The position numbers were made by a program, and so were the translations under genes. A stretch of 64,000 nt of DNA, taken from the NCBI GenBank assembly GCA_027081405.1, contig JALWKO010000049.1, positions 43,090 to 107,089 of the forward strand, in the 5' to 3' direction. Shown piece after piece: positions 1,016 through 29,580 of this stretch. The stretch comes from Campylobacteraceae bacterium. GTDB lineage: Bacteria > Campylobacterota > Campylobacteria > Campylobacterales > Sulfurovaceae. The notes below the pieces were generated by a model. The model was given only the letters and a program-made list of their open reading frames with translations. It searched no databases and was not told the DNA's origin. Positions within the stretch are counted from its first letter, which is position 1; each line of letters begins with the position of its first letter.

Positions 1016-1156
1016 ATGAACGTCCTTAAATTTGCCGCCGCACTTGCCGTAAATATCGTTTTTGCTATCGGGAATATTTTGATTATCGCCGTAGCGCTCC
1101 CAGCCCTGATTGTTGCGAAGTCTATCGACGAAGCAAAGGACTCCTGTGAACGGTAA
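1016..1156 (+). CDS. Small membrane protein, 46 aa (MNVLKFAAALAVNIVFAIGNILIIAVALPALIVAKSIDEAKDSCER)
   Basis: Short ORF with a hydrophobic segment directly upstream of, and overlapping, the TerS start; read by eye, absent from the supplied ORF track. Confidence 0.4.
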   Translation: MNVLKFAAALAVNIVFAIGNILIIAVALPALIVAKSIDEAKDSCER

Positions 1157-1739
1157 GCCCGCCCCCAAATTCCTCACCCGTTTCGACAAGCAATATCTTG
1201 CAAAGCTCGTGGAGCTGGGAGACGAACGAAAAGCGCTGCGGGAGGTATTCGGCCCCGGCACCCCAATGACGAAACACGACGAGATCATGCGCAAGCCGCT
1301 GGCGCAAAAAGAGCTGCGGCGGATGATGAAGGAGGCCGACGCGAACATGGAAGTAGCGGCGTCGCTGGCTCTGCGCTACCTCCAGCGGGTGATGGCCGTG
1401 AACGTGAACGACATCATCGACCCGGAAACCGGACAGCCGAGGAAGGATGTGCCGGACGAATACTGGGCGGCGGTAAACCAGTTCGAGAAAAGCGAAACGG
1501 AGTCGGGGTCGAAAACCAAGGTGGTGATGGCCGACAAGCTCCGGGCGGCGACCCAGATTCTCAAGATTCACGGATTGACGCAGCCAAAACAGGACGTCAA
1601 CGTCAACATCGGGATCGTGCAGCAGTTGAAAAGTGCGGACGTGGACGAAGAGGCGGGCGCGTTGCTCGAGAGCTTTTTCGCTTCACGCGGTGCCCTCGAT
1701 GCGGAAATCGTCGAAAGGGAAGACGATGAGAACGCTTGA
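1146..1739 (+). CDS. Phage terminase small subunit-like protein
   Basis: Position directly before the large terminase; DNA-binding-like, charged sequence; probable GTG start at 1146. Confidence 0.6.
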   Translation: MNGKPAPKFLTRFDKQYLAKLVELGDERKALREVFGPGTPMTKHDEIMRKPLAQKELRRMMKEADANMEVAASLALRYLQRVMAVNVNDIIDPETGQPRKDVPDEYWAAVNQFEKSETESGSKTKVVMADKLRAATQILKIHGLTQPKQDVNVNIGIVQQLKSADVDEEAGALLESFFASRGALDAEIVEREDDENA

Positions 1740-2022
1740 TGTGTATGTCACCGACGCTTCGTCTATCGCCGAATCGGTTTCGGAATTGTTCGACGCCAGG
1801 CCGGTCGCCGTACTGGTGCCGATCGAAGACTGGGTGCGGATCGACGGAAAAGAGTCGGTCCGTTGTGTCGATATGGAAGCGGAGCTCCCGACCATCGACG
1901 ATCTTTTGCGAAACGACGTCCTGTTCATCCACTACGGGGAGGAAGCGGAACGCGACTGGACCGAAGAGCTTTGGAGCGGAGCGATCGGAGATTCGATCAT
2001 TGAGGTGAGGCTGGCCGAATGA
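1726..2022 (+). CDS. Hypothetical acidic phage protein
   Basis: In-frame ATG at 1726; overlaps both neighbours slightly; compact phage operon. Confidence 0.55.
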   Translation: MRTLDVYVTDASSIAESVSELFDARPVAVLVPIEDWVRIDGKESVRCVDMEAELPTIDDLLRNDVLFIHYGEEAERDWTEELWSGAIGDSIIEVRLAE

Positions 2023-3836
2023 GCGAAATGAACCGTGACGACGCGATTTTTCTCAAAGCGTGTGCAAAGAGCCTCGAATTTTTTACCGTGATGGCACTGA
2101 AGGCAAAGCCGACGCAGCAGCAGTTGCAAGTGATCCGCGCGATCGACAAAGGGAAGCGGCACATCTCGATTCGATCAGGGCATGGCTGTTTCGCAAAAGG
2201 GCATCCGGTGATGATGTTCGACGGTTCGGTGAAGCCAGTCGAGAAGGTGCGGGTGGGCGACCTGCTGATGGGCGACGACGGCAAAACGCCCCGCACCGTG
2301 CTGGAATTAAAGCGCGGACGGGAGGAGATGTACCGCTTCACGTTCAACAGTGGGGACGTCCACACCTACAACGCTTCGCACAAGCTGGTGCTGGCCGGAA
2401 TGCACGGAACCGTCGAGGTGGAGGTTAGGCATTGGCTCGACTGGCCTGCCGATATTGTGCAGAAGTTTCATCCATACAAGCGATATCCCGACGGCAGAAT
2501 CGAGCCGCTGAAAATAGCGACGGTCGAAGCTCTCGGCGTCGGTGACTACTACGGCTTCACCCTCAACGGAAACCACCGCTTTCTCTCCGGCGATTTCATC
2601 GTTACGCGGAACACCGGAAAAACGACCCTTCTTTCCTGGATCGTTCTATGGTGGGGAACGTTTCGTGAGGACGTGCGAATCCCAATGACCGCTCCGACGT
2701 CGCACCAGCTCAACGATCTACTCATGCCGGAGATTCGGAAGTGGTGGGAAAAACTGCCGGACCTACTCAAGAGCTCCGTCGAGATAAAGACGGAAAAGAT
2801 CGACTTCCCGCAGGGCTTCGCCGTAGCCCGGACGGCGCGGAAGGAGCAGCCCGAAGCGCTCCAGGGCTTCCACGCCACGAACCTGGCGTTCATCATCGAC
2901 GAGGCGTCGGGTATCCCGCAGATAATCTTCGAGGTCGCAGAGGGTGCCATGACGGGAGAGGAGACCCTTGCGATCATGGCGGCGAACCCCACGCGAACCG
3001 AAGGGTATTTTTATGACTCCCACCACAAGAACCGCTGGATGTGGGAATGTTTCCAGTTCAACGCCGAAGAGTCGGAAAACGTTTCACGCGAGTGGATCGA
3101 GCAGAAAAAGCGGCAATACGGGTATGACAGCGACGTGTATCGCGTGCGGGTAAAGGGGGAGTTTCCGTCCGCAAGCTCAAACTCCGTTTTCAGGCTGGCC
3201 GACATCGAAGACGCAATCGCAAGGGAGCAGTTCGACGATAGCGGCGCGGAGGTGTGGGCGCTCGACATCGCCGACTACGGGGACGACCGCTCCGTGCTGG
3301 TCAAGCGGAAGGGGAAGCACTTTTACTTCATCGAGGCAAGACGCGGCCTCAACCTCCCCGATCTCGTCGGATGGCTCCTGTACGAATACAAAAAAGCGCA
3401 ACGCAAGCCCGCCGTGATCTATTACGACGCGATCGGGGTCGGATCGTCGCTCGGCGCGGTCGCCTACGAAAAAGGGCTTCAGTGCGTCCACGGGGTCAAG
3501 GCTTCCAACACCGCCATCGACTATCACACATACGAGAACAAGCGTGCCGAGTGGTACTACGCCCTCTCCGAAATCCTCAAGGACGGGAAGCTCCCGGACG
3601 ACGACGAGCTCGTAGGGGAGCTGATGGCCAACAAATACAAGATTTCGGCAAGCGGGAAACTTCAACTCATCGACAAAAAGGAGATCAAGAATGAACTGGG
3701 ACGGTCGCCCGACAAGGCCGATGCACTGGCAATGTGCTGCGAGAGCTTCTCCGCTTTGGACGTTTTGGCGATCGAGGAGGAAATGGATGAAGAATATTCC
3801 GCTCCGGAGCCAATGGAAGGAAGGGCCGCATGGTAG
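2019..3836 (+). CDS. terL: Phage terminase large subunit interrupted by an in-frame mini-intein
   Basis: Exteins give SGHG/TGKTTLLSWIVLWW (Walker A), AFIIDEAS (Walker B) and a C-terminal nuclease-like region (ALDIADYGDDRS, SPDKADALAMC). Confidence 0.93.
   Translation: MSEMNRDDAIFLKACAKSLEFFTVMALKAKPTQQQLQVIRAIDKGKRHISIRSGHGCFAKGHPVMMFDGSVKPVEKVRVGDLLMGDDGKTPRTVLELKRGREEMYRFTFNSGDVHTYNASHKLVLAGMHGTVEVEVRHWLDWPADIVQKFHPYKRYPDGRIEPLKIATVEALGVGDYYGFTLNGNHRFLSGDFIVTRNTGKTTLLSWIVLWWGTFREDVRIPMTAPTSHQLNDLLMPEIRKWWEKLPDLLKSSVEIKTEKIDFPQGFAVARTARKEQPEALQGFHATNLAFIIDEASGIPQIIFEVAEGAMTGEETLAIMAANPTRTEGYFYDSHHKNRWMWECFQFNAEESENVSREWIEQKKRQYGYDSDVYRVRVKGEFPSASSNSVFRLADIEDAIAREQFDDSGAEVWALDIADYGDDRSVLVKRKGKHFYFIEARRGLNLPDLVGWLLYEYKKAQRKPAVIYYDAIGVGSSLGAVAYEKGLQCVHGVKASNTAIDYHTYENKRAEWYYALSEILKDGKLPDDDELVGELMANKYKISASGKLQLIDKKEIKNELGRSPDKADALAMCCESFSALDVLAIEEEMDEEYSAPEPMEGRAAW
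2187..2612 (+). other. Mini-intein (142 aa, Cys1 ... Asn142, Thr+1) in TerL Walker A
   Basis: Starts CFAKGHPVMMFDGSVKPVEKV (block A), has YNASHKL (block B-like), ends YYGFTLNGNHRFLSGDFIVTRN (blocks F/G) followed by T; removal restores GHGTGKTT. Confidence 0.93.
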
Positions 3837-4300
3837 CAGGGCAGGAGTGGGCACGGGAGCAACTTTACGATCTGGTGGACGGGGACCTGCTTCGGCTGTA
3901 CGCATTCGTACTCAAAAACGGGAATTGTCGCGTAGCGTTGTCAAAAGAGCTTGCGGTAGCGAAGATCGCTCGAGACATGGAAAGCCGTGGCGCACCAAGA
4001 AAAGCGATTCGGGAAACAGTGCGACGCTACGGTGTAAGCAGAATACCGAAGAGAAAAGCATTTCCGAAAGGATTCCTGGCTGCCGTCAGGCTTTTTGGAG
4101 ATCCAGAGCGGGTCCTCGAAAAGAGTGCCGAAGATGTAACGCTCGTCTACGTGCTCAAGCGTCGTCATATCGAATACCTCATCATCGAGGCGCTTGCAAA
4201 AGCCGGGTGGTCCCCGAGTCAGATCGTCGCCGCGACAGGCTTCGGTCGCCGCCGCGTACAAAGGATCGTCAAAAAAGTCAAGGAGCAACACAATGAGTAG
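3830..4300 (+). CDS. Hypothetical protein with two helix-turn-helix-like segments
   Basis: APRKAIRETVRRYGVSRIPKR and GWSPSQIVAATGFGRRRVQRIVKK look like HTHs; between terL and portal. Confidence 0.5.
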   Translation: MVAGQEWAREQLYDLVDGDLLRLYAFVLKNGNCRVALSKELAVAKIARDMESRGAPRKAIRETVRRYGVSRIPKRKAFPKGFLAAVRLFGDPERVLEKSAEDVTLVYVLKRRHIEYLIIEALAKAGWSPSQIVAATGFGRRRVQRIVKKVKEQHNE

Positions 4301-5957
4301 AAAAACGAAGCAGCGCAAGCAGGCCCAAATCCTCCAGCTTATCGAGGAGGCGAAAAAGGGCTATCAGCGCTATAAAAACGACTTTGCGAAACTCGAAGAG
4401 GGATACCTCAACATCCTCGACCCAAAGCTCGTCAGAAGCCTGAAAATTCGCCGCAAGAGCCACATCACCCCACAGATCATCCGGGCCAAGGTTCGGCGCG
4501 TCGCGATTTCGATCATGAAAACGTATTTCGAGAACGACCGCTTCGCCGCCGTAACACCGGAGACGTTCGACAAGGAAATAATCGAACAGGCGAGTCGCGT
4601 GCAAGCTCGGCTCGATGTGTGGACGACAAAGAAGATCAACCTCTATTCCAGGTTCAAGCCCGCCGTGATCGACGCGCTCGTGTACGGAACGGCGATCGCC
4701 AAGGTGTGGTGGGGCAAAGGCGGGCTCAGGGTGTCAAGGGTGAAGGTGCGTGATCTGTATATCGACCCGAACGCCACGAACGTGGAGGACATCCAATATT
4801 GCGTCCATCGCGTTACGACCACAGTAGGAAAGTTGCGACGCCAATACGGTCGAAAATTCAAGTGGAAAAACTACATCGGTCAGCACGAAAACGGGAAGCT
4901 CGTAACGATTGATATCGGCGATGCGTCCCGCGTCGAGGTGCTGGATGTGTATCGCTATGAAGGGGGCAAGTGGCTCGTCTCCACCGTACTCCCGGATCAG
5001 ACCTTCATCCGTACCGACGTGGAGCTAAAAGACGGCCTGCCGTTCGTCATTGGAAACGTCGAACCCCAGTTCATTCGGTTGAGCGAAGGGAACGCCGTGG
5101 AGGCTTACGGCGGGAGCTTCATCGAGCCGATGATCCCGCTGCAAGAGGAATACACCGTCACGCGCAACCAGCAGATCGACGCGATCGACGGGATTTTCCA
5201 GCACCGCTTTTTGGCCACACGCGAATCCGGGCTCAAAGAAGAGGACCTGACCTCGAACCGGAAAAAGATCACAGTGTCCAATCTCAACATGGTCAAAGAG
5301 CTTCCGATCCCGAGGATTGACCCGTCAATCTTCGGAATCGACCGGCTCGATTCCGAAATGCAGGAGGTGAGCGGAGTAACAAAATACAACCAGGGGCTCA
5401 ACGACCCCAAAAACCTGAACCAGACGGCAACCGGAGTCTCGATTCTGACGGAAGAAGGAAACGCGGTGATCGCCGACATCACCCGCGCATTGAACGAGTC
5501 GTTTTTTGAGCCTGCGGTACGCCGCATGGCGAGACTGATCTGGAAGTACGATGAAGCGCCGGAGCTTTACGGCATCGACCGAAGCGCCGTCCCGCTTTTG
5601 CACGTCCAGATCAACGCGGGGGTCGGGGCGGTCAACAACGAGCTGCTGCTGAACAATATTTCGGCGGCTGAAGGGGTAGCGCTCCAGCTGGCTAACACCT
5701 ATGCTTCGCTCGGTGACGCCGTAGGGGCACAACGGTATCTCAGGGTGCTGGATGCGCTTTTTGAGGAGAAACTCAAAGCGCTCAAGCTGAAGACAATTAT
5801 TCCAATTGCGAAGGGAGAAGATGATGAGCGAGAGCGGATTGAAGACAGCGCAGCAGGAGCCGTTATCGGCGATGGAACTGCTGGCGGAAATGGAGGCGAC
5901 CAGGGGGTCGCTGGGCTTCCAGGTGCTGCTCCGGGAGATGGAGCAGAGATTCAATGA
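4293..5957 (+). CDS. Phage portal protein
   Basis: Large protein after terL; start MSRKTKQRKQ; PMIPLQEEYTVTRNQQIDAIDG and NLNQTATGVSILTEEGN are portal-like. Confidence 0.75.
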   Translation: MSRKTKQRKQAQILQLIEEAKKGYQRYKNDFAKLEEGYLNILDPKLVRSLKIRRKSHITPQIIRAKVRRVAISIMKTYFENDRFAAVTPETFDKEIIEQASRVQARLDVWTTKKINLYSRFKPAVIDALVYGTAIAKVWWGKGGLRVSRVKVRDLYIDPNATNVEDIQYCVHRVTTTVGKLRRQYGRKFKWKNYIGQHENGKLVTIDIGDASRVEVLDVYRYEGGKWLVSTVLPDQTFIRTDVELKDGLPFVIGNVEPQFIRLSEGNAVEAYGGSFIEPMIPLQEEYTVTRNQQIDAIDGIFQHRFLATRESGLKEEDLTSNRKKITVSNLNMVKELPIPRIDPSIFGIDRLDSEMQEVSGVTKYNQGLNDPKNLNQTATGVSILTEEGNAVIADITRALNESFFEPAVRRMARLIWKYDEAPELYGIDRSAVPLLHVQINAGVGAVNNELLLNNISAAEGVALQLANTYASLGDAVGAQRYLRVLDALFEEKLKALKLKTIIPIAKGEDDERERIEDSAAGAVIGDGTAGGNGGDQGVAGLPGAAPGDGAEIQ

Positions 5958-6138
5958 CCTGCACCGGGAGGCTGGAGACGAAAGTCTCGACCCCGTTGCG
6001 GTGGTCCGCAGAATCGAGCGCGCAAAAGGGATTGCATGGTCGATGGCGCTCATCGACGCTTTGATCTCCACGCTCGAGGACGAGGCGGAAGAAGAAAAGC
6101 GACAAAAAGAAATCGAAAAGGAGTACGACAATGGCTGA
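5821..6138 (+). CDS. Hypothetical phage protein overlapping the portal 3' end
   Basis: ATG at 5821/5824 after AAGGGAG; overlaps the portal in another frame by about 137 nt. Confidence 0.6.
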   Translation: MMSESGLKTAQQEPLSAMELLAEMEATRGSLGFQVLLREMEQRFNDLHREAGDESLDPVAVVRRIERAKGIAWSMALIDALISTLEDEAEEEKRQKEIEKEYDNG

Positions 6139-6484
6139 AGCACAAAAGACGAAAGGCCGGGGGCGCGCCAAGGCCCCTGCTGCCCCTGAAGTACAGGACG
6201 CTGCCCCTGAAGTACAGGACGCTGCCCCTGAAGTACAGGACACAGAAGAAAATGCGAACCAGGGCATGAGCTTTTGTGAGGCGATGGAGGCCGCCAGAAA
6301 AGGCGCCAGACTGCGGCGCAGAAAGTGGGGAGAGCGCATCCTCCCCGGTGGTGCCGTTGTGATCCGCCGTGGCGAAACGCTCCCGACCGTCGCCTACGAA
6401 ACCTACTATGCCGTGTTCACGGTGAGCACCGAGGACGCAATGGCCAACGATTGGTATGAAGTGAAAGGAGACGATAATGCCTGA
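6131..6484 (+). CDS. DUF2829/Tad2-like protein with N-terminal heptapeptide repeats
   Basis: MSFCEAMEAARKGARLRRRKWGE...TYYAVFTVSTEDAMANDWYEVK matches the (M)SFxEALxxxKxGxxxxRxxW ... seDxxAxDWxv pattern remembered for DUF2829. Confidence 0.65.
   Translation: MAEAQKTKGRGRAKAPAAPEVQDAAPEVQDAAPEVQDTEENANQGMSFCEAMEAARKGARLRRRKWGERILPGGAVVIRRGETLPTVAYETYYAVFTVSTEDAMANDWYEVKGDDNA
6179..6241 (+). repeat. Three tandem 21-bp repeats encoding AAPEVQD
   Basis: gctgcccctgaagtacaggac repeated exactly three times. Confidence 0.95.
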
Positions 6485-7196: not shown

Positions 7197-8132
7197 ATGC
7201 CTCTGCTTTCGTATGGAAACATGACGAACCAAAAGCCTTCGGTGCTCGACTCCATCATCCTCCAGGGCGTGCACAGAACCCCGTTCCTGGAGTGGATGGG
7301 GCGGGGAAGCGTCGCCGCGCCCAAGCACTCCTGGATTCTCGATCGCTACCGCGAAGCGCGCGAAAACGCGAACCTCGAGGTGACCGGGCTGGAGGAGAAC
7401 ACCCAGGACACGAAGTACATGAAGGACAACGTTGTCCAGATCATCAAGAACGACTTCGGCCTTTCCAAGGAGGAGCTGAAAAACGCCAAATACGGCGAAC
7501 AGGAGTGGCCCTACCGCGTAGCCAAAGAGGGGAAGGAGCACACCAAGGACATCGAGTACGCGATCCTCGGCCTCCACAACGCTTCCGTCTACGACGGCTA
7601 TACCGCGGGGAGCAACTCGACCCCCGCAAAAATGGCCGGCATCTTCCACTTCATCGAAGACACCAACCGGAAGCACTTCGACACCAACGGGGACGGAACC
7701 GGGGACAAGACCGATCTGACCTACGACAAACTCAGCGAGGCCATTCAGCCCGTATGGGAGCGTGGCGGCCTTGAAGACGAGAGCTTCCAGCTCGTCTGTG
7801 GCCCGACGCTCAAAAAGGCGATCAACCGCTTTGCCGGGGACCAGTATTTCCGGCGTGTAAAAGAAGACGGAAAATTCGACCCCACCCTCTTCGAGCTCGA
7901 GACCGACTTCGGAACCGTTCGGGTCAAGATTCATCGACTCTTTGCCAACCCCAAGCTGGCCGACAAACTGCTCATCGGGCAGCTCAACGAGGCGCGGATC
8001 ATGTTCAAGTACATGACCGACTTCGAGGAAGTGCCCACCGACAAGACCGCCAAATTCGGACGGTACTACACCTCCTTGACCCTGGAGATGGCCCGTCCCG
8101 ACTATTTCGCCTGCGCCGACGGACTGAAGTAA
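7197..8132 (+). CDS. Major capsid protein (SU10/DUF5309-like)
   Basis: Position after scaffold; SVLDSIILQGVHRTPFLEWMG ... ARIMFKYMTDFEEVPTDKTAKFGRYYTSLTLEM pattern. Confidence 0.8.
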   Translation: MPLLSYGNMTNQKPSVLDSIILQGVHRTPFLEWMGRGSVAAPKHSWILDRYREARENANLEVTGLEENTQDTKYMKDNVVQIIKNDFGLSKEELKNAKYGEQEWPYRVAKEGKEHTKDIEYAILGLHNASVYDGYTAGSNSTPAKMAGIFHFIEDTNRKHFDTNGDGTGDKTDLTYDKLSEAIQPVWERGGLEDESFQLVCGPTLKKAINRFAGDQYFRRVKEDGKFDPTLFELETDFGTVRVKIHRLFANPKLADKLLIGQLNEARIMFKYMTDFEEVPTDKTAKFGRYYTSLTLEMARPDYFACADGLK

Positions 8133-20141: not shown

Positions 20142-21083
20142 ATGAATTTCCTCGAAGTAGTCGATCCTTTGACCGGAAAAAAGACGCGCCGGGAGATGCA
20201 CCCCTCGAAGTACCAGCTCGGCAAAAGCCGGGAGCAGGGGCCGATGGGAGCATCCCAGGGGGCGCAGGGGTGGAGAGCTCAGTACGGCGATGCCGTAGGG
20301 AGATTGCTCGGAGGTATCACAGCGCAAAACGATACGCCGAAGTTCACCCCTATCACCCACTCCCTCTTGACGAACGAAGGATACAACCAAGCGCTGCAAA
20401 ACGTCTATGTGCGCAACCTCCAAAAGCTGGCTGCCCAACGCCGCCAGGCCCTCGTCGGGGCGCTCGGTAGCCTCCTCCGCCACAATGCGGCCATCAACAC
20501 GGCCAGGATTGGTGCGGCTTCCAGAATGTACGCGACCGACAAAGATTTCAAGGCCAAGACACTCGGACTTGAAGAGCAGCGTCGCTATCACGACCTTCTC
20601 AATAGCTACAATCGCGGGATGTTGCAAAACCAGCAGGAGAGGCTTCGGCTTGAGCGGGAAAAGCTGACCGCTCCCCAAAATCCGCGTCCGATCAATCCCC
20701 TTGACGCTGCAATCAAGCGCGCAAAAATCGTTCCGGATGCAAGCACATTCAAAGCGCTTATTCCGGACCGAGAGATAGCAGACGAGATCGGGAGCAAGAA
20801 TCTCAAAAAAGCCCGGATGTATTACATCCAGACTGGGAAAATGCCGAAATTCGAGAAAGAGAGCGGCTTCTTTGACGACTATGCCCCGATACCTCCGGGG
20901 CAAAAGCCCGCACCGAAGATCACCAAAGACCACATCCTATCAGTTCGCTCTGAAATCGCGAAAGACTTCGGTGTGCCGGAGGAGCAGATAGCCTTCGATC
21001 CTAAAAGGAAGATGTACGTTCTTCCTAACGGGTATGACGTTCCACTGAATAAAGCTTATGAGCGTGTTTTTGGGGACCGATAA
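20142..21083 (+). CDS. Internal virion/ejection-like protein
   Basis: ATG after GGAGGCAG; helical, Q/R/A-rich middle; directly before the large internal protein. Confidence 0.5.
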   Translation: MNFLEVVDPLTGKKTRREMHPSKYQLGKSREQGPMGASQGAQGWRAQYGDAVGRLLGGITAQNDTPKFTPITHSLLTNEGYNQALQNVYVRNLQKLAAQRRQALVGALGSLLRHNAAINTARIGAASRMYATDKDFKAKTLGLEEQRRYHDLLNSYNRGMLQNQQERLRLEREKLTAPQNPRPINPLDAAIKRAKIVPDASTFKALIPDREIADEIGSKNLKKARMYYIQTGKMPKFEKESGFFDDYAPIPPGQKPAPKITKDHILSVRSEIAKDFGVPEEQIAFDPKRKMYVLPNGYDVPLNKAYERVFGDR

Positions 21084-24000
21084 TGGCAAACGGTAAAAAT
21101 CGTTTTTTGGACATCGCCGTAAAGCGTGATGCTGAACCGAAAAATCGTTTTTTGGACATCGCCGTAAAATCCGACAATTCCCGCATAGACACGATGCCGG
21201 TAGAGGACTATGCCGAAGCAATCGATAACAAAAGCGGCACCATCGGCAGTTTCTTCAAAGGCTTCACCCACACCTTCGACGAATACGCGGCTACCCTGAA
21301 CAAGGGGCTGGATTGGGCTGCCGACAAAATCGCGGGACGCGACACCCACTACTTTGACCAGAATGTCGATTACTGGAATCGGCAGCGAAAGCAAAACGAG
21401 ATCGAAACAGCGGATCACCCTTTTGCGCATTTGGCCGGCGAGCTGCTGCTCGATCCGATCAACTTCACTCCGGCGGGGATCGCGTCGAAGGGGACGAAGC
21501 TGGCGCGAATCGCCAAGTCTGCGGCAGGAGGAGCGGCTATCGGGGCCGGAGCAACGTTCGCCCACGACTACGGAAACGTTTCGGTAAATGACGAGCAAAA
21601 AATCAAGAACATGGAGTTCGGGGCCGGGCTCGTCGCACTTGCGAATGCAGCGATCGCCGCCCTGACGAGGGGGAAGGTCTGGGATGCGATCAAGACTCCG
21701 GAGGACATTGAAAGCCCACACGCGAAAGCGGCGATCCAGGCGCTGATCGAGCGGCCCGAGGCGTTCGGGCTCGACAAGGGAAGTGTCGAGAAGATCAAGC
21801 GCGAGGCGGCGGCGAAAGAGCAAAGCGCCAAATCTGACGAGGCGTTCGATTGGGCGCGATTCGCGGAGGATTACGCGGAGCCGGATCACGGAACGGTTCT
21901 TGATGCAGAAGGGAACGTTTTGTATAGCGGAGAGGGGGCGTGGCGGGAGCTGCACACAATCGACGAGCCCCACGAGCTCCGCGCTCATGAGCAGGAGTCC
22001 GATCCTACCCCAGAGCCCGATATGGATGTGGATGCTATTTTGTCTGCGCCAATTGAGAATCTATCGGATAATCCGCTATTTCAGTATGTAGTCGATCGTG
22101 CACGAAAACGAAGCGCATCCGATATTCGGCATGGTCGGAAGCTTGAGTTCGATCGTGACTTTCGTTACACGCATGACGGCGCGAAGTGGGGCGCGGAGAT
22201 CAGCCCCGCCGTGTACTCCCCAAACTACGAAGCCGATTTTGCGCTGACGAAGGGGGACGTCAAAAAGATCGAGGCGGGCAAGATCACGCCGGAGATCGAG
22301 GAAAAGATTCGGCACGATATGCGGGTAATGCTCGAGCATCCCGACTGGGCCGATGAAGGGACGGCGATTCTCTCGGGTAAACGAGGGGCTCCGCTTGATG
22401 AGGTGCGGCTCAACGAAAACGGAGAGCTCGTAGGCCCCGACGGTGTACCAATCTTTGCAAATGGGATTCCGAGCCTGGCCGTAGGCGTTGGAGCCGGGAC
22501 CTACAACGCCATTTCCGGTGAGTACGATCCGAACCGGGACTTCATGAGCCAGATCGAGCAGAAGTTCCTCCAGGGACTGATCTACGGAACCCTTGGAACC
22601 CTTGCACTGAAACAGTTGCGTCACATTGCGCCAGAAAGCTATGAACGTGTGCGAAAAGCTGTGCTTGAAAATTCTTATCGGGACGCGGACGGTTCGATTC
22701 GGCTCAACGCCAACGCCCTGGAGTCGAAGTACCTGCGCAGGGGACGCGGCGGTGAGCGCGTCAACGAGTCGGCGCTGATGCGCGAAGCCGCCACGCTGCC
22801 GGAACCTATCAAGAGTTATCAGGAGTTTAAGGCAAACTTCTTATCGGCCCCAGATGGGCGCACATATATCGAAACGCCCGTTGGAAGAGTCTACGCCAAC
22901 GCAATGAAAGTATGGGGACATTTGACGGACAATACGCATTTTGACGATAGGGGGTATATCAGCGGCGCCTTCGCGGATACGATGCGCGATCCGCTCTTTG
23001 TGGTGAAGCAGCCGTATAAAGATGATTGGAATATCGTTTTCTATAAGCCGTTCAAGGGAGAAGACGGACACTATCATATCGCCGCTTTTGCGGTAGATAG
23101 AAACGGGGAGTTGGTCAACAAAACTTTTTTTGAGTTGAGCGATCTTTCCAAATTAAAGAAGATGATAAAAGTACCGGATAGGAACCTATTGTATGAGAAG
23201 CGCCTCAATCAGCCGACTCCCGAAGGAAGCCCTGATTACACTTCGCACGCTAAAAGCAGCGTGGAAAAAGACGCTAATGCAATTGTAGCAGATGACGACA
23301 ACGGCGTCAAGATCGGGATGTTTGCCGGAGACAAGCCTTATACGAGACCGAGCGGGCCGGACGATTTCAAATTTGAAAAGGCCGTAGTCAGACACGCAAA
23401 AGAGTGGGCGCAGGAGCTCAATCCGTTTTCAAAATCCGACACGAGCGCGCACTTGAAGCGGATCATCGACGATCAGTTTACAAGGGAATGGAAAAAGATC
23501 GACAACAGCCTGAAGGGGTCGTTCAACCGGTGGTTTAGAAACACCCTCTCTGGGGAATATATGAGCAAGCGCGAAGAGGTGATGTCCGGACGCCACGAGG
23601 CGATCAAAGAGGCCGAAAAGCTGCACGCCGCGTTGATGCACTTGAGCGAATCTGACCGGAAGATGCTGCATGAGTATATCGTCGGCGACATCGACGACGC
23701 GCCGGAGCACGTCAAGGCGATTGCAGAAAATATCCGCGCAACGGTCCACGACCTCCAGGAGAAAATCCGGGATGCCGGGATTCTGCCGGACGAGGCGATC
23801 GACGCGTGGGGCAAATACTACCTCAAGCGGCTCTACGACCCCTACTACAACGCAGACAATCCGGTACAGTGGGTCAAGCGCTCCATGACGATCCCGAAAA
23901 TGAAGCGTCGGGGGAAAGAAGAGATTGTCACGATGGATGAATTTCGGCAGATGGTCGAAGACGGCGAAATCCCCACAGAGAATCTGACAATCGACCCAGA

Positions 24001-28779: not shown

Positions 28780-29580
28780 ATGATCCTCATCGCCGGTCCC
28801 TGCGTCATCGAAAGCCGCGAAAACGTCCTACGCATCGCCGAGGCGTTGCGCCCCTACCACGACGATCCGAGCAAGGATTTCTATTTCAAGGCCAGTTTCG
28901 ACAAGGCCAACCGCACCTCCCTCGAGAGCTTCCGGGGCCCCGGCCTCGAAGAGGGGCTCAAGATCCTGCAGGAGGTCAAGGAGCGTTTCGGCTATCGGGT
29001 GCTCACCGACATCCACCTCCCCGAGCAAGCCGCTCCCGTGGCGGAAGTGGCCGACGTGCTCCAGATCCCCGCCTTCCTGTGCCGTCAGACCGATCTCCTC
29101 GTCGCCGCGGCGAAAACCCCCGCCACGGTCAACATCAAAAAGGGGCAGTTTCTCGCCCCCCAGGCGATGGAACATTCGGTGGCGAAGGTGCTGCGTACCC
29201 GCGGCTACGACGGTCCGATCGTCCATGACGCCGCCCGAAAGCTGGGGGTCTGGCTCACCGAACGGGGGACGACCTTCGGCTACGGCAATCTGGTGGTCGA
29301 CATGCGGGGCTTTCCGATCATGCGCCGATTCGCGCCGGTGATTTTCGACGCGACCCACGCCGTGCAGATGCCCGCCAGCGGAGCGGCCGCCAGCGGAGGA
29401 GACAGCCGTTTCGTCCCCTATCTGGCACGAGCCGCGGCAGGTGCGGGGGTCGACGGCTTTTTCTTCGAAACCCATTTCGATCCCTCCGTGGCACTCAGCG
29501 ACGGCCCCAATATGATAAAATTGCACGAACTTGAACGATTGGTCCCCCAACTGGAGGCAATCGCCCGAATCGTCGAATAA
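28780..29580 (+). CDS. kdsA: 3-deoxy-8-phosphooctulonate synthase
   Basis: AGPCVIES ... [12 protein letters not shown] ... [16 protein letters not shown]. Confidence 0.97.

Follow-up and report, generated by a model that had tools for sequence, protein, structure and literature searches.

A probable class 1 mini-intein with a penultimate arginine in the P-loop of a prophage terminase from the Campylobacterota

We identified a 142-amino-acid insert in the Walker A motif (P-loop) of a terminase large subunit gene (terL) of a prophage, in a window of 64,000 nucleotides from a draft genome assembly of a Campylobacterota bacterium. Inteins are self-splicing protein elements that are common in phages. 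Judged from its sequence, the insert is very probably a splicing-competent class 1 mini-intein that carries a compensating change in its active site and is derived from a LAGLIDADG homing intein whose endonuclease has since been lost. Features of the locus are listed below in window coordinates, except for two upstream genes given in contig coordinates; the window corresponds to G000:C49:43090-107089 in our numbering of genomes and contigs. A slash within a motif marks a splice junction.

1110..1739, + strand: terS, terminase small subunit (Pfam Terminase_2 4e-8, phrog_51)
2019..3836, + strand: terL, precursor of the terminase large subunit (N-extein, intein and C-extein), 605 aa
2019..2186, + strand: N-extein, 56 aa with C-terminal ISIRSGHG, delimited by alignment with intein-free TerL
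2187..2612, + strand: mini-intein, 142 aa, Cys1 to Asn142 (C57...N198 of the precursor)
2187..2225, + strand: block A, CFAKGHPVMMFDG, with Cys1 at 2187-2189 and His6 at 2202-2204
2352..2393, + strand: block B, GDVHTYNASHKLVL, with Asn62 (B:7) at 2370-2372, His65 (B:10) at 2379-2381 and Lys66 (B:11) at 2382-2384
2547..2585, + strand: block F, YYGFTLNGNHRFL, with the block F His130 at 2574-2576
2598..2615, + strand: block G and +1 residue, IVTRN/T, with Arg141 (CGG) at 2607-2609, Asn142 at 2610-2612 and Thr+1 at 2613-2615
2613..3836, + strand: C-extein, 407 aa from T199GKTTLLSW plus the stop codon, comprising the rest of the ATPase domain and the nuclease part
4290..5957, + strand: SU10-type portal protein (Pfam SU10_portal 4e-31)
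7197..8132, + strand: SU10-type major capsid protein (Pfam SU10_MCP 7e-53)
C49:28233-29312, upstream on the contig: putative tyrosine integrase ORF, read by eye
C49:34164-34766, upstream on the contig: putative LexA-like repressor ORF, read by eye

The terL product matches the terminase family in Pfam (Terminase_6N, 3e-7) and in PHROG (5902, phrog_2). The terS gene lies upstream and the SU10-type portal and capsid genes lie downstream, and the locus therefore encodes the packaging and head functions of a podovirus-like prophage. Host genes, e.g. that for DAHP synthase, begin by position 28780. A phage nucleotide search with the terL region returned no close phage. The interval between the portal and capsid genes (6131-6484) encodes a short protein with three tandem copies of the repeat AAPEVQD.

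The insertion point falls exactly between SGHG and TGKT of the Walker A motif, and TerL without the intein comprises 463 amino acids (605-142). A second prophage on the same contig has a TerL (C49:3364-4746) that is intein-free, 84% identical and carries the uninterrupted sequence SGHGTGKTTLLSW. When the two prophages are compared by blastn, the alignment stops at window position 2185 and resumes at 2613; as far as an alignment can resolve, the insert is thus exact to the nucleotide. Further intein-free relatives of this TerL include L002 from IMG/VR, G011, G016 and about ninety others. The sequence-only reading had placed a 142-residue intein at 2187-2612, exactly inside the Walker A motif, and the translation, the Pfam match described below, the blastn breakpoints and the intein-free homologue all agree with that placement.

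Searched alone against Pfam, the insert matches Hom_end_hint (E=2e-20). A PDB sequence search retrieves the yeast VMA1 intein (E=5e-12), with which both the first 55 and the last 28 residues of the insert align. Modelled by AF2 together with ten residues to either side, the intein has a mean pLDDT of 88.5, exceeding 90 across its core, while the whole precursor modelled from a single sequence gives a pLDDT of 33. Foldseek with the intein model ranks Prp8 inteins at the top (E=1e-11, TM normalised to target 0.90) and domain I of PI-SceI next, and we are confident from this model that the insert would fold as a Hint domain nearest to the Prp8 and VMA1 inteins. Its family includes the P-loop inteins of Campylobacterota DnaB and, more distantly, the fungal VMA1 and Prp8 inteins. 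The S. cerevisiae VMA1 intein (PI-SceI) and the Cryptococcus Prp8 mini-intein are the best solved-structure matches in both sequence and fold; however, they differ in having eukaryotic hosts, other insertion sites and a penultimate His. The VMA1 intein was also considered as an occupant of the same P-loop site, a candidate that was dropped when PDB sequences placed its start 23 residues downstream of the P-loop Cys (...IIYVG/CFAK).

The residues expected of a class 1 intein are present, namely C1, T+1 and the C-terminal N142. All splicing blocks (A, B, F and G) and nucleophiles are intact and the reading frame is open. Block B, YNASHKL, had earlier been called atypical relative to TxxH. However, its His is present (N62-x-x-H65; position numbering after PMC4031507), the Asn at B:7 and the His at B:10 do not vary among 18 aligned relatives, and in the VMA1 intein of yeast Asn (N76) likewise takes the place of the usual Thr at B:7 (PMC6805012). 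By sequence, N62-A-S-H65 is the norm of this family and would supply the assisting residues of class 1. Class 3 inteins have a non-nucleophilic first residue and a block F Cys (the WCT triad), whereas in this intein Cys1 is present and is the only Cys. The 142 residues contain no homing endonuclease domain and leave no space for one, in agreement with the description of the insert as a mini-intein.

The Hint fold is shared with bacterial intein-like (BIL) and hedgehog domains, and the insert could in principle be a BIL or other Hint domain that is kept in TerL as a stable or self-cleaving part rather than spliced out. We regard this as extremely improbable. Several properties of the insert mark it as an intein and not a BIL: its terminal Asn precedes a Thr nucleophile, it lies within an otherwise conserved P-loop, intein-free homologues exist, and full-length, endonuclease-bearing versions occupy the same site.

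The usual penultimate His, which is a common rather than a defining feature, is replaced by Arg141. About 5% of functional inteins have no penultimate His (PMC4031507). Regular expressions applied to all fetched loci recovered 81 distinct inteins, of which 77 have a penultimate His, two Arg, one Met and one Phe. The second Arg belongs to L184, a 329-residue intein in a prophage TerL of genome G068, which belongs to another family within the same order of Campylobacterota. L184 occupies the same insertion site, contains the motif LLAGLLDTDG and ends in FIVTRN/SGK, with Ser at +1. When the two inteins are aligned, the LAGLIDADG region is the part missing from the mini-intein. They share 69% amino acid identity over 140 aligned residues and form a sister clade in the splicing-domain tree (aLRT 97.8, bootstrap 100), making L184 the closest relative of the present intein. 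Simple pS/pN counts give a pS of 0.86, at which synonymous sites are saturated, and a pN of 0.22, and the Arg codon is CGG in the mini-intein and AGA in L184. Because Arg is retained at this identity, across saturated synonymous sites and with a different codon, the sequences indicate that it has been kept by selection and is neither a recent lesion nor a sequencing error. The Arg noted in the sequence-only reading is real and rare, but it is not private to this copy, since L184 shares it. Private decay as the source of the Arg was rejected once L184 had been found.

More broadly, the element could be a decaying intein in which loss of the penultimate His crippled splicing and left the terminase dead or nearly so. 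The Arg stands where 77 of the 81 surveyed inteins have His, the element has no endonuclease to keep it mobile, and the intein-free terminase of the neighbouring prophage could complement a defective one. Decay is nevertheless unlikely. A full-length intein of the homing type, from another host family, combines this Arg, there encoded by a different codon, with Lys at B:11 and His at position 6; the nucleophiles and frame are intact; and the TerL extein is not accelerated, having 8 lineage-private changes compared with 5-17 in five relatives. Moreover, the prophage retains its portal and capsid genes as well as integrase- and repressor-like ORFs. From sequence, an active terminase in this prophage, which would require splicing, is likely. 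Loss of the penultimate His could nonetheless result in slower splicing.

The Arg is linked to two other replacements. Thirty alignment columns are at least 90% conserved in 29 relatives, and the mini-intein departs from them at three only (T6H, I66K and H141R). L184, one of the 29, is the sole exception among them at these positions and has the identical replacements (H6, K66 and R141); position 6 is Thr in the other 28. Position 66 corresponds to B:11 and immediately follows the block B His. Arg is found at B:11 in the remaining inteins without a penultimate His, L094 (Met) and L095 (Phe), so that B:11 is basic in all four non-His inteins and Ile in 77 of 77 His inteins, where the residues of L025 (NASHI) and L254 (NKSHI) were taken after their intein starts had been corrected by eye. 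The naive probability of this split is 6e-7, a value that makes the evidence look too strong, given that the sequences are related and perhaps represent two origins. The association of B:11 with loss of the penultimate His is suggestive, because the four non-His inteins may reflect only two independent origins. L094 and L095 have Cys at +1 and are inserted at a DE/C site in the protein of a different phage gene.

In the Ssp DnaE intein, which likewise has no penultimate His, an Arg at B:11 is reported to help the Asn cyclize (reviewed in PMC4031507), although Ssp DnaE is a split intein of another subfamily. By analogy, the simplest inference is that Lys66 would do in the TerL intein what Arg B:11 does in Ssp DnaE. 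The sequence-only reading had raised the possibility of an atypical splicing mechanism; the evidence instead favours an intein of class 1 whose active site carries a compensating change in the form of Lys at B:11. With slightly more doubt than belief, we further propose that the mini-intein and its full-length relative form a small lineage with a rewired class 1 active site (penultimate His to Arg, B:11 Ile to Lys, position 6 Thr to His), that a basic B:11 generally permits loss of the penultimate His, and that fixation of the change preceded loss of the endonuclease. Exact DNA patterns for FIVTRN[TS]GK and YNASHKLVL had no match in IMG/VR, Arg-lineage patterns in 397 genomes of the phylum were found only in G000 and G068, and the pattern CF[AG]KGH in 397 genomes of the class returned the same two. 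These searches turned up no close orthologue of the mini-intein.

We infer splicing, the roles of Lys66 and His130 and the route of acquisition as follows. Cys1 would form the N-terminal thioester, assisted by Asn62 and His65, and the N-extein would be transferred to Thr+1 (T199 of the precursor). Asn142 would then cyclize and the exteins ligate, giving an uninterrupted SGHGTGKT P-loop. Without a penultimate His, Lys66 at B:11 and the block F His130 probably aid Asn cyclization, as proposed for Ssp DnaE. The ancestor would have been a homing intein whose LAGLIDADG endonuclease resembled that of G068; with the endonuclease lost, the intein would now be inherited along with the prophage. Splicing can fairly be expected to be needed for the ATPase activity of TerL, because the P-loop is interrupted.

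This dependence allows for a conditional switch, in which splicing regulated by redox, temperature or metal would gate the packaging ATPase. Such responsiveness has been proposed or shown for other phage and mycobacterial inteins (PMC7156551, PMC6195587), and in a phage RDF intein substitution at the penultimate position changed the levels of precursor (PMC5050341). Redox gating through Cys1, as suggested in the sequence-only reading, finds no support: Cys1 is the sole Cys of the intein, residues -4 to -1 are SGHG, and the closest N-extein Cys is C15, 42 residues upstream, making a disulfide trap unlikely. In addition, homing inteins of scattered distribution at the same site need no regulation, and no regulatory signal was found. 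We consider a switch quite improbable; a former homing element persisting after endonuclease loss accounts for the data without regulation.

The origin of the mini-intein as a homing element is consistent with the occupancy of its site. Twelve distinct inteins in the fetched loci, including this one, are inserted at GHG/[TS]GK of TerL, and L184 adds another. Eleven other inteins and L184 at exactly the same site are far beyond chance. Full-length inteins with LAGLIDADG (L022, L068, L088, L089 and L184), a degenerate intein of 207 residues that keeps LGAWLGDG and has no LAGLIDADG (G056), and further mini-inteins of 139-151 residues (L025, L026, L027, L036 and L084) are all represented. Proteins with and without an intein are mixed in the TerL tree, where adjacent pairs include the window TerL and its intein-free neighbour, L068 and L108, L184 and L185, and L007 and L186. 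The mini-intein and L184 are 69% identical whereas the TerL exteins are 56% identical; this difference suggests that the intein moved laterally while it still had its endonuclease. Intein (58%) and extein (57%) now have the same G+C content.

Among 96 intein-free TerL relatives, 63 have Val directly after SGHG (61 VGKT and two VGKS), and intein-bearing TerLs have Thr or Ser at this position. Val cannot serve as a +1 nucleophile. A Val after SGHG would presumably make a terminase immune to the TerL P-loop intein.

Inteins in the P-loop of TerL and phage inteins without a penultimate His have already been published; the present intein has an unusual, testable combination of active-site residues. 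In the part of Kelley et al. 2016 (PMC5050341) drawn on here, TerL is the most intein-rich mycobacteriophage gene, P-loop inteins included, and TerL1-a and TerL1-b likewise interrupt Walker A. Five tested mycobacteriophage TerL inteins splice in E. coli. Class 1 phage inteins keep the penultimate His poorly, it being often replaced by Gly, Lys or Ser, with Arg not among the replacements named in that part, and one Gly to His change slowed splicing. The same part states that TerL1-a splits Lys/Thr and that TerL1-b lies one residue away; the present cut, GHG/TGK, lies three residues upstream of a and therefore belongs to neither. The BAKA TerL1-b insert is without Cys1, which the present intein has. 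Other reports describe a cyanophage TerL that harbours two inteins and an intein in the TerL of a Salmonella phage (PMC7156551, PMC6486243). The TerL inteins of Acinetobacter phage ABMM1 and Vibrio phage pYD38-A are inserted at the same P-loop position, GxxG/[TS]GK, and run from Cys1 to HN/[TS]GK. However, both have a penultimate His and Ile at B:11, and pYD38-A keeps its endonuclease.

A single terminase site within one phage group thus presents all states of the homing cycle (empty, full-length with endonuclease, degenerate and mini), and the empty and mini alleles coexist in one bacterial chromosome. The mini-intein offers a clean, testable case of penultimate-His independence, in which residues 6, 66 and 141 can be swapped and natural controls exist. 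If active, a 142-residue single-cysteine intein could be a useful start for splicing tools.

Several further observations were made. The Sulfurimonas TerL L068, which has a full-length intein, and the intein-free L108 from IMG/VR are very close, with short branches, and are a good pair for studying homing. Campylobacterota frequently carry DnaB inteins with LAGLIDADG at AMGK/T (L009-L016 and L214-L251), three genomes of the genus to which the window belongs among them, and no other intein of this type was seen in the window genome. A Ruegeria phage tape measure protein (L031, vB_RpoS-V11, 1501-1887) matches intein residues 1-132 with 38% identity. Such a protein would be an unusual place for an intein or Hint domain, and our motif script located no ends in L031. 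Over its last 80 bases (2533-2614), the TerL mini-intein shares 78% DNA identity with inteins in the helicases of Salmonella Jersey-type phages (E=4e-8), an unexpectedly close match for such distant hosts. Finally, the two prophages (G000:C49:1-43089, with L178-L180, and window 1-26549) are related and apparently in tandem on one contig. Their alignable DNA, from the packaging genes to about 26.5 kb of the window, is 68-91% identical, and a 395-bp stretch (20897-21291) is 91% identical, above its surroundings.
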